Source: Gammaproteobacteria bacterium (lineage in GTDB: Bacteria; Pseudomonadota; Gammaproteobacteria; Pseudomonadales; Pseudohongiellaceae). From it: a DNA stretch of 64,000 nucleotides. The position numbers were made by a program, and so were the translations under genes. Location: NCBI GenBank assembly GCA_018401885.1, contig JAGYKB010000006.1, positions 1-64,000 of the forward strand, written 5' to 3'. The notes beneath the pieces are model-generated. The model was given only the letters and a program-made list of their open reading frames with translations. It made no database searches and had not been told where the DNA came from. Position 1 is the stretch's first letter. Each line of letters begins with the position of its first letter. Shown one piece after another: positions 52,267 through 59,821 of this stretch.

Positions 52267-52788
52267 GTGGCAGAGATGAGAGAGGATATGAAAAGCAAAA
52301 TTAGAGTGGGGCATGGATTCGATGTTCATCGCTTCGCGCCAGAAGCGAGCACGAATAAACCACTCATTCTGGGCGGGGTGACCCTGCCAGACGCGTTAAG
52401 CCTAGAGGCGCACTCGGATGGCGATGTAGTGTTGCATGCCCTTTGCGACGCGTTGCTAGGTGCCATCGGCGAAGGGGATATTGGTCGACATTTTCCTGAT
52501 ACAGACAAAAAGTTTGCGGGTGTCTCCAGTCTCATCCTTCTAGAACACGTTTATTCGCTGGTTACGGCGCGCAACTTAGCCCTATCGAATGCCGATATCA
52601 CCGTTGTTGCGCAATTACCCAAGCTCGCTCCCCACAGTGAAGCTATGTGTGTACGCATTGCTTCTTCACTTAAAGCGCCTCGCGATTGCATTAATGTCAA
52701 AGCAACGACAACAGAACAACTCGGCGCAATTGGTCGTGGGGAGGGGATTGCGTGCCATGCCGTTGTTTTACTCGAGGGGTGCGAGTGA
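52267..52788 (+). CDS. ispF: 2-C-methyl-D-erythritol 2,4-cyclodiphosphate synthase
   Basis: 173-residue zinc enzyme following IspD/IspE in the MEP pathway. [11 protein letters not shown] supplies the Asp-x-His zinc ligands, [20 protein letters not shown] the third histidine, and the late [17 protein letters not shown] is diagnostic. The start is uncertain: GTG 52267 has a weak AAAGG upstream, and ATG 52276 and ATG 52288 remain possible. Its TGA overlaps the GTG of truD. Confidence 0.94.
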
Positions 52789-53933
52789 GTGAGCGACGCG
52801 TGAGTAATGACCTCTTGCCGCTCGACTCGCTCGCCTACGCGCTCGGCAAGCCGGATGGTAGCGCTAGAATTAAACAAAAATTTAGCGATTTTCGCGTCGA
52901 TGAGGAACTGGCATTCGCACCCACCGGAGAGGGTGATCATGTCTTCGTCCAAATCAGGAAGACCGACGCATCGACCATTGAGGTTGCAAAGCGCTTAAGT
53001 CAGGTCGCGTGCGTACGGCAAGCAGACGTCAGCTACTCAGGAATGAAAGATAGGCGGGGAGAGACCAGTCAGTGGTTTAGTGTCAAGCTCCCATCAGAAA
53101 AGGAGTCTCGACTGTCTGAGCTCGAAGATGACCAGCTCTCTATACTTGCGTTACAGCGCAATAGCCGCAAACTCAAGATTGGTAGTCATGCTCGCAATCG
53201 CTTCCACCTAAAATTACGCGACTGCGAGGGCTCAAAAGAAGAATTCGAAAGGCGGCTGAGTGCGTTGCGCGACAACGGCGTGCCAAATTATTTTGGTGCG
53301 CAGCGTTTTGGCGCTCAATTGAGTAATCTGCGACAGGTTACAGTGCTGATGCGAGAGGTTCTGGATGGCAAGATGGCGGCCGAGCGCGGTCCCCGCTTTC
53401 GGCGAGGAATGCTTTATTCTGCAGCGAGATCCTATTTATTCAATCAAGTGTTGTCAGAGCGAGTGCGCGTAGGAAATTGGCTAAATTATGTCCCTGGCGA
53501 CGTTTTAAGTCTTGAGGGCAGTGGTCGCTTTTTTACGGTTGGATTCGAAGACGAGCACGGCGCTGAGTTGACCGACGAGCTTCAGCGGCGAATGGATAGT
53601 TTGGATATTCATGCAACGGGCCCGCTGCCTGGAATCATTTCGGCAAAAGATAAGTATGTAAGCTTGGGCAAAGCGGCCGATATTGAAGAGACAGTGCTAG
53701 AAGATCTTGACTGGATGGTGGCCGGTCTCGCGGCATTCGGGCTGCAGGCAGCGCGCAGAGCGCTGCGGTTTGTGGTCTCAGAACTGACTTGGCAGTGGGA
53801 AAACGAAGGGCCGGCAAGTAGTGCCGCGGGTGCAGCATCAACCTGCGGCAACCTTAATTTAACGTTTACCTTGCCCCGCGGAGCCTATGCAACCAGCCTG
53901 CTGCGCGAACTATGTCAACTAAGAGAGAGTTAA
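52785..53933 (+). CDS. truD: tRNA pseudouridine(13) synthase TruD
   Basis: 382-residue pseudouridine synthase for position 13 of tRNA-Glu. The catalytic aspartate lies in [16 protein letters not shown], and the inserted TRUD domain includes NYFGAQRFG. The C-terminal [17 protein letters not shown] block is typical. The start is taken as GTG 52785 with GAGGGG 5 bases upstream, giving a GTGA overlap with ispF; the open frame extends further back. In Pseudomonas surE follows truD; here pcm follows directly. Confidence 0.94.
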
Positions 53934-53950
53934 CTGCCTAACCGATACCA

Positions 53951-54658
53951 ATGAGCGGCTGGCTCGAGACGATTAAAATGAGTTTTAGAACAGAGTCCAC
54001 CCCCAATTTAAGCGGGATCGGGATGACCTCGCAGCGAACGCGTGAGCGTCTCCTAGGCAGACTGATGGATCAGGGTATTACCAGTATGGAAGTGCTCGAT
54101 GTGATCCGCTCGACCCCCAGGCATATTTTCCTGGACGAGGCTTTGTCGCACAGGGCTTATGAAGATGTCGCGCTCCCCATAGGATTCAATCAAACTATTT
54201 CACAGCCCTATATTGTCGCCCGGATGACGGAGATCGCTTTTCTCTCGGGACCACTGACTAACGTCCTTGAGATTGGCACCGGCTGCGGCTATCAAACGTC
54301 CATTCTCGCGCGCCTCGCTAAGCGGGTGACAACGGTCGAACGGATTAAACCACTGCTCGATAAAGCACGGAAAAATTTGCGTCTTTTAGGGCTTCGAAAC
54401 ATCGATTTTCGTCACGGCGACGGGAGTCTTGGGTTTAAGCGCAGTGGGCCCTTCGATGCCATCATAACAACGGCAGCGCCCCAGCAGATTCCTCACGAAT
54501 TACTCTTTCAGCTCAACGACGGTGGTCGGTTAATTATTCCCGTCGGCGGCGATGTTCAGCAGCTGCAGTTAATCACCCGTCGCGGTGAGGATTTTCAATG
54601 TGACAAACTAGAAGACGTCAAATTTGTCCCATTGCTTGTGGGTCAGGTTCAAAACTGA
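53951..54658 (+). CDS. pcm: Protein-L-isoaspartate O-methyltransferase
   Basis: 235-residue repair methyltransferase that acts on L-isoaspartyl residues in aged proteins. Family blocks are RHIFLDEALSHRAYEDVALPIGFNQTISQPYIVARMTE and the SAM site VLEIGTGCGYQTSILARL. The normal protein is about 210-225 residues, so ATG at codon 10 or 25 is also possible. surE, its usual partner upstream, is missing. The stop overlaps the start of the DUF368 gene (TGATG). Confidence 0.94.
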   Translation: MSGWLETIKMSFRTESTPNLSGIGMTSQRTRERLLGRLMDQGITSMEVLDVIRSTPRHIFLDEALSHRAYEDVALPIGFNQTISQPYIVARMTEIAFLSGPLTNVLEIGTGCGYQTSILARLAKRVTTVERIKPLLDKARKNLRLLGLRNIDFRHGDGSLGFKRSGPFDAIITTAAPQQIPHELLFQLNDGGRLIIPVGGDVQQLQLITRRGEDFQCDKLEDVKFVPLLVGQVQN

Positions 54659-55626
54659 TGGATAAGTCTTCTGCTCAGGAGGGACTCAGTAACCTCCAGC
54701 GAGCGACGGTGTTCGCTAAAGGGCTAGTGATGGGGGTTAGTGACTCTGTTCCGGGTGTTTCGGGAGGCACTATTGCGCTTATTGTGGGTATTTACGAACG
54801 ACTTATCCGAGCGATAAGTGCGTTCGATTTGATCGCGCTGCGGCTGCTAATGAGGAGAGAGTTGCTGCAGGTATGGCGCCATATCGACGGCGCGTTCCTG
54901 TTACCACTCGCGCTTGGCATGGGATGCGGTCTTTTGCTGTCCGCCAACACCGTTCTCTATGCCCTCGAACATGTGCCAATTTTTGTAGGTAGTTTTTTTA
55001 TAGGCTTGGTTTTAGCTGCGATGCTTCTCTTGCGCAGCGAATTCACGCTTAGGCATTCTCCGTATCTATTGCTCGGGGCAGGCTTGGTCGGGGCGCTGGG
55101 GTGGTTGCAACCAAGCTCAGAGCCGCTGACCAGCCTTGGTTTGTTTGTCGCCGGTGCAGTCGCAATTAGTGCGATGTTACTGCCGGGTCTATCAGGCGCG
55201 TTTATACTAATATTGTTGGGTGCCTATGAGACCATGCTCACCGCGCTGGTAACTCTCGACATTGGCACAATTGCTGTTTTCTCAGCGGGCTGCATAGTCG
55301 GTCTGATGGTGTTCTCTCGGGTGTTGAGAGGCTTGCTCAGTCGTTTCCATAGTGAAGCTTACAGCGTTATCGGTGGATTGTTGTTAGGTTCTTTAGCATC
55401 GATATGGCCTTGGCGAGTGCCGGTTACCTCGGCAAGCATTGAAGGCGATGATCCTATGATGCGATTGGCTCTGCCGTCTGAGTATGCGACGAGCCTCGGG
55501 GTTGAAGCACACACATGGATTGCACTCGGTTTTGTCGGCGCCGGTTTGGCTTGCGTCTTAGGTCTCAACCGGCTATTCAACTCAAGAAACTCTGCGAGAG
55601 GAATTTCATCGGCGCAGCAAGAGTGA
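54658..55626 (+). CDS. DUF368 family membrane protein, predicted undecaprenyl-phosphate translocase (PopT-type)
   Basis: 322-residue polytopic membrane protein with about eight hydrophobic segments. Two related motifs, SDSVPGVSGGTIALIVGIYERLI (residues about 28-50) and MLLPGLSGAFILILLGAYETML (about 172-193), form the internal repeat typical of DUF368. Members of this family were reported in 2022 as transporters that return undecaprenyl phosphate to the inner face of the membrane; applying that here is inference. It is coupled to pcm and nlpD by one-base or close overlaps. Its place between pcm and nlpD is not one I know from Pseudomonas or E. coli. Confidence 0.88.
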   Translation: MDKSSAQEGLSNLQRATVFAKGLVMGVSDSVPGVSGGTIALIVGIYERLIRAISAFDLIALRLLMRRELLQVWRHIDGAFLLPLALGMGCGLLLSANTVLYALEHVPIFVGSFFIGLVLAAMLLLRSEFTLRHSPYLLLGAGLVGALGWLQPSSEPLTSLGLFVAGAVAISAMLLPGLSGAFILILLGAYETMLTALVTLDIGTIAVFSAGCIVGLMVFSRVLRGLLSRFHSEAYSVIGGLLLGSLASIWPWRVPVTSASIEGDDPMMRLALPSEYATSLGVEAHTWIALGFVGAGLACVLGLNRLFNSRNSARGISSAQQE

Positions 55627-55661: not shown

Positions 55662-56606
55662 ATGCGAATTTACCAAGCTGCGATTCTCACGCTAGTAGCA
55701 ACGGTAGGCGGGTGCAGGAGCTATGAAGCACCGATTGCCGATCAAGGTGATCGCCAGGTTGTAACGCCGCCGCTCGTTGTTACGACATCGACACCGGATA
55801 GTCAGTTGCGTGTGCCCGCAAATGCGCCCGTTATTGTGAATTCTGACGGTTCTGCTTCCATTGCTCGTCAATCTAGGCAGCCAGCGGCGGTGACTGTGAG
55901 CGAGCCAGTTCGACGAGTGGGCGGTCTCACAGAGACACGGACATTCCCCTCAGGTGCGCGCACTCATCGAGTACGCGAGGGTGATTCGCTCTACTCGATA
56001 GCGTTTCAATACGACCTCGATGTTAGGGCGTTGGCACTCGCCAATAGCCTGCGCGCACCCTACACGATTTTCGTTGGACAAGAATTGACCCTAGATTTGA
56101 ATGCGCCTGCGGCAAGAGCCGCGTCCCCCTCGATTGCAATAGGCACGCCCGTTCGTAACAACGGTGTGGCCCAAGCACAGGCTGGTACGCCGGCTCGTGG
56201 TGGCGTGCTACGCCGTTCCATCGGAGGTGGGTCACAAGCGGTCACGTGGCAATGGCCAGCTGAGAGCACACGCCTGCTGCGAAGCTTTGGCTCCGGCGAT
56301 GCGCGTGGGATAGATATCGCAGTTCGCCGCGGCGACCCAGTGCTTGCGGCTGCTGACGGCGAGGTTGTTTACTCGGGACGCGGAGTGCAGGGAAGTGGCG
56401 ATCTAATTATCTTACGGCATAACGATCGCTACCTAAGCGCCTATGCGCACAACAGCGTTATGCTTGTGACCGAAGGTGAGCGAGTGAAAGCTGGGGACAA
56501 AATTGCCGAGGCTGGTACGAATCTATCGGGAGACCCGCTGCTACATTTTGAAATTCGTGAAGACGGAAAATCAATTGACCCAGTTGGCTTGTTGCCGCGG
56601 CGTTAA
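55662..56606 (+). CDS. nlpD: NlpD family lipoprotein, amidase activator
   Basis: 314-residue predicted lipoprotein. From ATG 55662, which has GGGAGG 10 bases upstream, a short signal peptide ends in the lipobox VGGC with the lipidated Cys at residue 19. A LysM domain (THRVREGDSLYSIAFQYDL..., about 105-148) binds peptidoglycan. The C-terminal LytM/M23 domain (about 215-310) lacks the zinc ligands: GIDIAVRRGD replaces the HxGxD motif and LLHFEI has only one histidine, as in non-catalytic NlpD that activates AmiC. rpoS does not follow. Confidence 0.93.
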   Translation: MRIYQAAILTLVATVGGCRSYEAPIADQGDRQVVTPPLVVTTSTPDSQLRVPANAPVIVNSDGSASIARQSRQPAAVTVSEPVRRVGGLTETRTFPSGARTHRVREGDSLYSIAFQYDLDVRALALANSLRAPYTIFVGQELTLDLNAPAARAASPSIAIGTPVRNNGVAQAQAGTPARGGVLRRSIGGGSQAVTWQWPAESTRLLRSFGSGDARGIDIAVRRGDPVLAAADGEVVYSGRGVQGSGDLIILRHNDRYLSAYAHNSVMLVTEGERVKAGDKIAEAGTNLSGDPLLHFEIREDGKSIDPVGLLPRR

Positions 56607-56631
56607 TGCCGCAGGCTTTTAGCGCTCGATG

Positions 56632-56955
56632 CTAGCGTTCGAGATACTGGAGTTTGTTTTCTACGTCAGTGAACTCTTCGGCCTCTGGTAACGCGTCTTT
56701 TTTCTCAGTGATATTTGGCCATATCTCCGCGAGTTCCGCATTTAGGGCTAAAAATTGCTGCTGATTCTCAGGAAGTTCGTCCTCGGCGAAAATCGCGTCT
56801 ACTGGGCATTCGGGTTCGCAAAGCGCGCAATCGATGCACTCGTCTGGGTGAATTACCAAGAAGTTAGGGCCTTCGTAGAAGCAATCTACAGGGCACACCT
56901 CAACACAATCTGTATGCTTACAACGAATACAATTGTCTCCAACTACGAATGTCAT
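56632..56955 (-). CDS. fdxA: 7Fe-8S ferredoxin FdxA
   Basis: 107-residue electron carrier of the Azotobacter FdI/Pseudomonas FdxA type. Cysteines C9, C17 and C50 fit the 3Fe-4S site, and C21, C40, C43 and C46 the 4Fe-4S site; C12 and C25 are extra. A helical tail of about 50 residues follows the cluster domain. It is convergent with nlpD at only 25 bases; in Pseudomonas rpoS lies in that gap. The upstream 226 bases toward mutS show nothing that I can name. Confidence 0.95.
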
Positions 56956-57181
56956 GTTATCTCCGCACTTTTCCCGGTGACACGCAGTTTAACCTTGCGC
57001 GGCACTCTCTGACCTAAAATTTAACGCCGAGGCTCTCGTCTGTCGCCTAAATTAGAATGTCTGTCGACATCGCTATTGGGTTCTCTAACTCTCACGCCCA
57101 AAGGCGCGAAGCAGGCGACGAATTCTAGCAGTTTTTTTCGTTTCTGACTCGGCTTTTCCCTCACGTACCCAGGCGTTGAGT

Positions 57182-59821
57182 CTAGCCAAGCTTTGCTTTC
57201 AATGCATACAGCAACTCCAGCGCTTCTTTGGCAGTGATTTCATCTGGGTTTACGCGCTCGAGCGTCTCGATGACAGGATGTGGTCCCTCGGCAAAAAGTT
57301 CGCTTTGATAGGGCGCGCTGCCCGATGTTTTTTGCACGCTGTTGAGCGTCGCGCTCGCCACCGCTTGACTCGTCGATTCTGTCGCAAGGCTTTCGGCTTC
57401 GAGCTGAGCCAACTTACCGCGTGCACTGTCGATAACCGCGGCAGGAATGCCCGCGAGTTGTGCAACCTGTAAGCCGTAACTCTGATTGGCGGGCCCGGGT
57501 TTGACAGAGTGCATAAATACAATCCCGCTCTCGTGCTCGACTGCGTCGAGATGCACGTTGACTATGCTGTCGAAATCATCGGGCAGGCTCGTGAGTTCGA
57601 AGTAGTGTGTCGCGAAAAGCGTGTAGGCATTAAGTCGCTGAGCGATGTAGACCGCGGCAGACCAGGCGAGGGAGAGGCCATCGAAGGTGCTGGTACCGCG
57701 CCCAACCTCGTCCATGAGCACGAGGCTGTCTTTGGTTGCATTGTGTAAAATGTTCGCTGTTTCGGTCATCTCAACCATGAAAGTCGAGCGACCGCCGGCG
57801 AGATCGTCTGCCGAGCCAATACGCGTGAAGATGCGATCGATAGGTCCAAGCTTGACTTGTCTGGCGGGAACGAAGCTACCGCACAGCGCGAGTAAAACAA
57901 TTAGCGCAGTTTGGCGCATATAGGTCGATTTACCGCCCATGTTTGGTCCGGTAATAATGAGCATTTTGCGCTCGCGATTAAGGATTAAGTCATTGGCTAC
58001 GAAGCTGCTTTCACTTACGCTTTCGACGACAGGATGGCGTCCTGCTTCTATCTCGATGCCTGGTTCTGAAGTCAGCTCGGGCTTGCAAAAATCGAGGTTC
58101 GTGGCTCGCTCGGCGAAACAGGTAAGAACATCTAATTGGGCAAGAGCTTCGGCGCTTGTTTGCAATGCTGCAAGGTCTACGGCGAGCGTGTCGAGGAGGT
58201 CATCGTACAGTGCTTTTTCGCGGCTTAGGGATTTGCTTCGAGCGCTCAACACTTTATCCTCAAATTCTTTTAATTCGGGAGTGATGAATCGTTCGGCGTT
58301 TTTCAGCGTTTGTCGGCGAATATAGTCAGCCGGCATCGCGACGCCTGCCTGGCCTTTACTGATTTCAATATAGTAGCCATGCACACGGTTATAGCCGACC
58401 TTAAGCGTTGTGATGCCGGTGCGTGCTTTTTCTTTTGTCTCTAAATCGATTAAAAACTGACCGGCGTTGCTGCTTAGGTTGCGCAACTCATCGAGCTCAG
58501 AATCGAAGCCGCTTTTGATTACACCGCCCTCGCGTATAACCACCGGCGGATCCTCCTCAAGCGCGTGAGTTAGCAGCGCATATTGGTTTGGAAACTCTGC
58601 GATGCTTGCCGCAAGTTCGGCAAGCGTATCACTCTCTGTAGCTGCGAGTTTGCTTTGCAGTGCTGGCAATTGGCCCAAACCGTCGCGAAGCTTTGCAAGG
58701 TCTCGAGGACGCGCTGACCGAAGACCAAGACGCGCGAGTATTCTTTCGAGGTCACCAATGCTGCTCAGCAGTTCCGCTATGGTCTCGAAGTGGTAATTGC
58801 GCATCAGCTCTGCGACACGGTTCTGCCTAGTCTTAAGGAGCGTAAGATCTCGCAGGGGACGATTGACCCAGCGCGACAGCAACCGTCGCCCCATTGCAGT
58901 CGAGGTTGTATCGATAACGGAGAGCAGCGTGTTGTCGCGTCCGCCCGAAAGATTGATATCGAGCTCTAGATTACGTCTGCTTGCGGCATCGAGAATGACG
59001 CTGTCCTCAAGCTGCTCGACGCTCAGTCCCTGAATGTGTGGTAGCTCTGTGCGCTGTGTGTCCCTCGCGTACTGTAAGAGGCAACCAGCCGCTTGCAGCG
59101 CTATGTGCAGATGTTCGCAACCAAAGGCGCTTAGATCTCGGGTTTTAAAATGGCTGATGAGCGCTCGACGCGCATTGTCGAGTTCGAATTCCCACACGGG
59201 GCGCTTCCGTTTTGCGGGATGCCGAACAGTCTCCATCGCCGGCTCTAGCTCTTCTTGGAAAAGAATTTCGGCAGGCCGGATGCGTTCGATTTCTGCCCGC
59301 AGCGCTTCAAGGCCGAATACCTCGCTTAGTACGAATCGACCGCTGCTTATATTCATCGACGCGATACCGAATGTTGTGCTGGCATCGATTTCGTTCACGT
59401 TTGACTTGACCGAGAGACAGAGCAACGAGTTGTCCGTGCTCTCGTCGAGGAGCGCTTCGTCACTCACGGTGCCGGGGGTAATTACCCGCACTACTTTGCG
59501 TTCAACGGGGCCCTTACTGGTGGCTGGGTCGCCTATCTGCTCGCCGATGGCTACCGAGACACCTGCGGCTACGAGCTTCGCTAAATAGCGATCGGCGGCG
59601 TGAAATGGGATGCCGCACATGGGTATTGGCTGGCCACCAGATTTACCCCGCGCCGTGAGGGTAATGTCGAGAATTCGCGATGCTATTTTCGCGTCTTCGT
59701 AGAAGAGTTCGTAGAAATCTCCCATGCGATAAAACAAGAGGCCCTCGGGGTGCTGCGCTTTGATGCTGAGGTATTGCTGCATCATCGGTGTGTGAGTGCT
59801 TGAGTGGTTGACTATGGTCAA
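57182..59821 (-). CDS. mutS: DNA mismatch repair protein MutS
   Basis: 879-residue mismatch-recognition ATPase. The N-terminal mismatch-binding domain has [33 protein letters not shown] with the Phe-x-Glu wedge. Connector, core and clamp domains follow. The C-terminal ATPase has Walker [10 protein letters not shown] and Walker B/signature [22 protein letters not shown]. The C-terminal tail for dimer/tetramer contact is present. The order fdxA-mutS-pncC-recA-recX is shared with Pseudomonas. Confidence 0.97.

Follow-up and report, generated by a model that had tools for sequence, protein, structure and literature searches.

The genome examined here lacks the canonical rpoS gene between nlpD and fdxA, and it encodes, on a different contig, a divergent RpoS-type sigma factor that we term RpoS2 (gene rpoS2). 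We think it likely that the nlpD-fdxA junction marks the place from which a canonical rpoS was lost and that the paralog now holds the role of the RpoS-type sigma factor of the cell. Textbooks treat RpoS as the master regulator of the general stress response; candidate steps by which lineages might come to live without it are visible in the living relatives of this bacterium, namely genomes with both copies, with the paralog only, with a decaying paralog and with none found.

The DNA under study is a 64,000-nt stretch of a single contig, hereafter the window. Its genome (G000; 70 contigs, 2.62 Mb, 99.63% complete) belongs to a genus-level group of 84 genomes, here designated g1, whose nearest named relative is OM182 BACL3.

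The nlpD-fdxA junction

A preliminary description of the window reported that nlpD and fdxA converge at 25 bases with no rpoS between them, and the coordinates of the two stop codons agree with this (Table 1). The absence of rpoS at this junction is real and unusual. As the junction and its flanks all lie on a single contig, an assembly gap is not the cause. A scan of the junction for promoters and terminators found none. Upstream, a 363-aa nlpD frame from 55515 overlaps popT, and the likely start of nlpD is Met50 of this frame, at the beginning of a lipoprotein-like signal. The genes to the left (truD, pcm and popT) were identified by family searches, while the names mutS, pncC, recA and recX on the right are those of the preliminary description. 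Its statement that the flanks are preserved holds for nlpD and fdxA by family search and for mutS, pncC and recA by comparison with relatives; recX keeps the name given there.

Table 1. Features of the window at and around the nlpD-fdxA junction
Feature	Position	Strand	Basis
pcm, conserved left flank	53951..54658	+	Family search
popT-type polyprenyl-phosphate transporter, left flank conserved in g1	54658..55626	+	Family search
nlpD, with LysM and M23 domains	55662..56606	+	Domain search; same place in relatives
Convergent nlpD/fdxA junction, 25 bp, canonical rpoS missing	56607..56631	.	Compared with 69 g1 junctions and sister genera
fdxA, 107-aa ferredoxin, preserved right flank	56632..56955	-	NF045490, 171.1 bits against a cut-off of 135
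mutS, preserved flank and rate yardstick	57182..59821	-	Name from the preliminary description; compared with relatives

The pairing of nlpD with rpoS, described earlier as one of the most stable in gammaproteobacteria, is borne out by the best 80 loci of a name search: nlpD lies just upstream of rpoS in 76 of the 79 loci from outside OM182, the exceptions being L129, L146 (at a contig start) and L153. The order nlpD-rpoS-fdxA-mutS of Pseudomonas nitroreducens (L170) likewise agrees with the statement that fdxA follows rpoS in Pseudomonas. Closer to the window, rpoS is present at this kind of junction in all 21 loci read in sister genera of the same family and in five g1 genomes, and fragments of it persist at four further g1 junctions. 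The comparison of relatives with and without rpoS that the preliminary description had proposed could be made at 69 readable g1 junctions, of which five have the gene and 64 do not (G031 being scored from matching contig ends); the remaining 15 of the 84 genomes could not be judged.

A separate feature of the left flank concerns surE, which from other genomes is expected between truD and pcm. In the window (52752-54658) these two genes are 17 bp apart with no surE between them; g1 loci and Seongchinamella (L107) show this spacing too, and the Pseudomonas locus (L170) has gene-sized room.

RpoS2 and its origin in group g1

The preliminary description took the stress sigma factor gene to have been removed or moved. 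It is correct in that rpoS once stood at such junctions; however, a search of the genome recovered an RpoS-type sigma factor on contig C1 (G000:C1:375608-376546, minus strand, 312 aa), which by sequence comparison is a paralog and not a relocated rpoS. An RpoS gene at a second locus is what the preliminary description itself had named as refuting it, and the idea that the genome has no RpoS-type sigma factor at all is thereby ruled out. A profile search of the contigs gave five matches to RpoS models. RpoS2 is best matched by RpoS models (NF004207, 343.2 bits; TIGR02394, 328.2 bits), the best RpoD-type model reaching 231.2 bits; the true RpoD lies on another contig, with 755.8 bits to its own model, and the remaining three matches score at most 128.6 bits each. 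The RpoS2 scores fall short of the curated RpoS equivalog cut-offs, which are 394 bits for NF004207 and 378.7 bits for TIGR02394, and some other RpoS2 proteins exceed the curated cut-off, such as that on contig C1 of G012 at 440.9 bits. A missing rpoS beside nlpD, or an RpoS score below cut-off, does not therefore prove that an RpoS-type sigma factor is missing.

The best matches of RpoS2 in the PDB are RpoS structures, and Sigma-70 regions 1.2, 2 and 4 are recognised in it. Among nine RpoS2 proteins scanned, the Pfam Sigma70_r3 domain gave no match in those of G000 and G058 and fell below the cut-off in that of G026; it is present in the other six and in two canonical proteins. A structure model of BACL3 RpoS2, of modest confidence (pLDDT 68.6, pTM 0.35, 20 sequences), places helices where region 3 would be. 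The lysine equivalent to E. coli K173, which RpoS uses in promoter recognition as described in PMC3306417, is present in the RpoS2 of the window's genome; at this position, 42 of the 46 readable rows have Lys and four have Arg, with nine of the 55 rows (G015 included) unreadable. The nearest named relative of the protein is from OM182 bacterium BACL3 MAG-120619-bin3 (75% identity), which PMC4699468 assigns to the marine OM182 group. Searched against Rfam, the rpoS2 locus returned no match.

In the window's genome, rpoS2 is flanked downstream by a CoA-transferase gene and upstream by ubiC and an OmpA-type gene. For the former we use caiB as shorthand, its best model being a succinate-glutarate CoA-transferase, under cut-off. 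Across g1, both ubiC and caiB flank the gene in 32 of 55 cases (where both are on the contig), and at least one of ompA, ubiC and caiB is nearby in 48 of 55; the other seven are near contig ends or different. One further match above the limit, in G015, was placed beside RpoD in the tree and excluded from the RpoS2 counts.

Given that the window's genome has a single RpoS-type gene, at the ubiC-caiB site, one might suppose that the canonical rpoS moved there from between nlpD and fdxA, so that there would be one gene and no paralog; a grouping of RpoS2 with the canonical RpoS of g1 is also not rejected in tree tests. Nevertheless, we regard such a move as highly improbable. The RpoS model search found both kinds of gene in five g1 genomes (G007, G011, G012, G024 and G031). 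In four of them a single contig carries the canonical copy flanked by nlpD and fdxA; in G031, nlpD and rpoS are at matching ends of two contigs, from which its double-copy state is deduced. Because these five genomes hold both copies, simple relocation is rejected. Moreover, the 54 RpoS2 sequences in a 94-row tree make up a single clade (SH-aLRT 100), separate from the nlpD-linked RpoS of this and other families; the tree was built by a quick method and carries a long-branch warning, with 11 slow rows alone giving an agreeing result, and the RpoS2 of G006 (127 aa) was too short to be included. The GNLGLxHAV motif also sets the two apart, with His in place of Arg in 50 of the 54 RpoS2 rows (Arg in G014 and G036, unreadable in G058 and G071) and Arg in 5/5 canonical RpoS proteins of g1.

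The paralog being the preferred reading, its origin can be approached through the sister genera. Of 15 sister-genus genomes searched for the ubiC-caiB region, seven had no caiB match; in 8/8 loci found, ompA, ubiC and caiB are adjacent and the ubiC/caiB site is empty. Of 23 sister-genus genomes searched for RpoS, none showed a second RpoS, and the order nlpD-rpoS-fdxA is kept in the 21 loci read, with the gene shortened in G333 and G332; G340 has a broken rpoS beside nlpD (L367), and G331 gave no RpoS match. With rpoS at nlpD and an empty ubiC-caiB site in these genera, the canonical rpoS is ancestral and rpoS2 is an addition of g1.

Whether this addition came about by duplication bears on a further explanation, in which the g1 ancestor acquired RpoS2 from an unsampled donor, after which the newcomer displaced the rpoS already present. 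This would account for the failure of RpoS2 to join the canonical RpoS of g1 in free trees. However, long branches can push RpoS2 out of such a grouping, and trees constrained to join the two are as likely, with lnL 3.7 and 0.2 higher (AU p 0.638 and 0.497). A constraint joining RpoS2, the g1 canonical RpoS and the sister genera was also not rejected (p 0.193), and the sister genera, as noted, showed no second RpoS among the genomes searched. We hence consider transfer from a donor rather unlikely. That a grouping of RpoS2 with the g1 canonical RpoS is not rejected fits a duplication in the stem of g1, which would predict this, but does not prove it.

Probable loss of canonical rpoS and the state of RpoS2

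The five genomes that keep the canonical rpoS are scattered over the species tree of g1, which was built from six markers for 76 taxa (three of them outgroups) by a quick method, with several rows less than half filled. This scatter suggests that the canonical gene was lost repeatedly. Dollo parsimony, which admits losses only, yields 13 losses, of which collapsing weak nodes leaves at least 10, and we conclude from these reconstructions that canonical rpoS was probably lost 10-13 times in g1.

Fitch parsimony, which allows gains, needs only six changes, and, with the canonical gene at just five scattered sites among the 69 readable junctions, this might be taken to mean that RpoS2 was ancestral in g1 and that an early-lost canonical rpoS returned to the nlpD-fdxA slot through as many as five horizontal transfers. 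Several findings speak against such regain, which we judge improbable. First, the sister genera have the nlpD-rpoS-fdxA order. Second, the five canonical copies form one clade (SH-aLRT 100) with identities of 0.77-0.85, and those of MutS are 0.69-0.78; differing about as much as MutS, they are no recent import. Third, remnants of the canonical gene, in the expected strand, are detectable at four further g1 junctions (G002, 67.4 bits; G074, 35.8; G099, 32.3; G091, 32.0), that of G002 spanning 48 aa at 75%. They emerged from a comparison of 53 junction gaps of 40-1000 bp with 1060 shuffled gaps, whose maximum was 25.4 bits, so that the fifth real gap, at 25.0 bits, is inside the shuffle range; the 25-bp gap of the window is itself below the length usable in this test. 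If the fragment junctions count as once occupied, the Fitch reconstruction rises to 10 changes.

Two observations on individual junctions may be recorded here. The canonical rpoS of G011 (C29, L048) has an in-frame TAG in region 4.2, which may reflect a decaying copy or an error. In G086 (C242, L265, 1-6000), nlpD is followed by a putative DNA methyltransferase and other putative island genes in place of fdxA-mutS.

Repeated loss of canonical rpoS, as we prefer to read the junctions, is accompanied by decay of RpoS2 in part of the group. The rpoS2 frame is intact in 47 of 55 genes, interrupted or shortened in six and cut by contig ends in two; most of the genomes are drafts, in which false breaks can arise and some stops and absences are possibly errors, and the breaks in G023, G066 and G092 are the least certain. 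Truncation or fragments of rpoS2 are seen at further loci in G094, G061, G064 and G102. The ubiC and caiB genes are 15 bp apart in G095 and about 240 and 360 bp apart in G002 and G010, with no match between them in the latter two, and G086 has a different reading frame at this place. A sensitive RpoS search of 20 genomes (18 of the 29 g1 genomes without RpoS2, and two with a broken gene; nine of the 20 at least 90% complete) found no intact RpoS in any of them, the match in G093 running off the end of its contig; 17 of the 20 gave RpoD. In G095, which is 98% complete and sister to the lineage of the window on a long branch, both sites are closed up and neither RpoS gene is present.

These states raise the possibility of erosion alone, in which the family would be losing its general stress response, with RpoS2 on the way to extinction and its promoter motif merely vestigial. 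RpoS2 is indeed highly diverged where it is alone, it is broken, truncated or deleted in the relatives listed above, and Pfam no longer recognises region 3 in the proteins of G000 and G058; the RpoS of the sister genera is also changing fast, and PMC10325922 reports RpoS to be absent in 54.9% of 1686 gammaproteobacterial representatives. Against this, most rpoS2 frames are intact, the motif described below persists in leaders whose remaining sequence aligns poorly, and the copy of G000 resembles mutS in its dN/dS: by our own counting script, the rpoS2 value is 0.062 for G000/G071 (188 codons; mutS, 0.093) and 0.073 for G000/G084 (312 codons; mutS, 0.065). Such low values, similar to those of mutS, indicate that the copy in the window's genome is maintained, and we view erosion alone as somewhat unlikely. 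In other pairs, the rpoS2 value ranges from 0.046 (G028/G034) to 0.262 (G020/G100), several lying at 0.19-0.26.

Over longer spans RpoS2 has diverged rapidly: between G000 and G026, MutS is 84% identical and RpoS2 52%. For 37 genomes in which both proteins are intact, we divided the RpoS2 distance by the MutS distance; the quotient is 0.84-1.03 in the five double-copy genomes and 1.16-2.33 in the 32 single-copy ones, without overlap, distances being taken to the double-copy genomes, which double as the reference set. Relative to MutS, RpoS2 is thus about twice as diverged in genomes without canonical rpoS; the genomes are related and are not independent data points. The lowest single-copy ratio belongs to G089, close kin of the double-copy G012. 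The neighbouring CaiB shows no difference between the two classes (p 0.26; 27 of 32 usable). The nlpD-linked RpoS proteins of sister genera g23, g24, g112, g113 and g114 lie on long branches too. In this family RpoS can hence change fast without loss of the canonical gene, and it may be in the double-copy genomes that constraint is unusually strong. The nlpD-linked RpoS proteins of g23 (L327-L332) have very long branches, RpoS changing fast across the family.

A candidate promoter of rpoS2 and comparison with known systems

Of 55 rpoS2 leaders, 45 contain the exact motif CTATACT in the 400 bp that precede the first aligned base, a count that overstates independence as there are close relatives among them. 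In 100 rounds of shuffling, it was found on average in 0.6 leaders and never in more than three; the reverse strand gave none, and TATAAT is present in one leader. Within 900 bp the motif is found in 49 of 55 leaders (a count made without shuffles); the six misses are G071, with no upstream sequence, G031 and G029, with CTATAAT, G090 and G068, with broken genes, and G026, a close relative with an intact gene. In the 600 bp upstream of canonical rpoS, by comparison, it is seen in 0/5 g1 leaders, 4/18 from sister genera and 2/80 from elsewhere. An alignment of the leaders of five close relatives was little informative. In Pseudomonas putida, CTATACT is reported to be the -10 region motif of RpoS, and its mutation abolishes RpoS binding (PMC11784136), and a C at -13 is given as part of the E. 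coli RpoS consensus (PMC7527412). The presence of this RpoS-type -10 motif in the rpoS2 leaders suggests that RpoS2 transcribes its own gene, and its conservation makes such possible self-transcription by a sigma factor directly testable.

Taking these findings together, we propose a mechanism in which rpoS2, to judge from the trees and synteny, would have arisen in the g1 ancestor, with the canonical rpoS then being lost about ten or more times. RpoS2 is predicted to bind core RNA polymerase and might read the same -10 element by means of its conserved region 2 and the K173-equivalent lysine. A separately controlled rpoS2 copy of this kind could have made the canonical rpoS dispensable. After the loss, the remaining RpoS2 would come under weaker or altered selection, some lineages ending without any RpoS. 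A bolder version, which we offer tentatively and think less probable than the basic reading, is that a self-transcribing paralog made rpoS redundant, that at least 10 deletions followed, that each freed the paralog to evolve fast, and that the whole RpoS-type response was thereby repeatedly lost. If this were true, all stages of such a path would be represented among the living species of g1.

CTATACT gives no sign of a broad regulon: it is not enriched upstream of genes in 737 kb (28%) of the window's genome (10 sense and eight antisense occurrences; rank 11 among 210 anagrams). As a single anecdotal match, an OsmC-family gene of this genome (C10:27495-27914, L401) has the motif 44 bp before its start and is a possible target of RpoS2.

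RpoS2 shares with the canonical, nlpD-linked RpoS (sigma-38) regions 1.2, 2 and 4, the best-matching family and PDB structures, and the K173-equivalent lysine; it differs in lying away from nlpD, in forming a separate clade, in the His of the GNLGLxHAV motif, in scoring under the curated cut-offs in the species of the window, and in its leader with an RpoS-type -10 element. Parallels are also offered by the RpoQ protein of Aliivibrio, which accompanies a normal rpoS, whereas in g1 the paralog is what remains. Compared by description, RpoQ is likewise an RpoS-like protein that has diverged, and Pfam finds no significant region 3 in it, but it is tied to quorum sensing (PMC6134601). The same source describes RpoX of Vibrio alginolyticus as an RpoS-like sigma factor without region 3, and the likeness to RpoS2 is again by description only. 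The apparent end state of some g1 relatives, with no RpoS found, resembles that of RpoS-less gammaproteobacteria such as Acinetobacter baumannii, although the available part of the account of these (PMC10325922) describes no paralog stage. Thus, both RpoS-like paralogs (RpoQ and RpoX; PMC6134601) and the absence of RpoS (PMC10325922) were already known. In the open-licence literature on rpoS paralogs, loss, duplication and relocation, and on OM182 and Pseudohongiella, we found no case of a paralog outliving rpoS group-wide with its own RpoS-type promoter.

In a survey of 245 genomes of the order, 44 had, among the matches listed, none better than the RpoD level. At least 13 of the surveyed genomes, eleven of these thirteen in families f20 and f39, carry a third strong sigma factor match, and RpoS2 may therefore occur outside g1.
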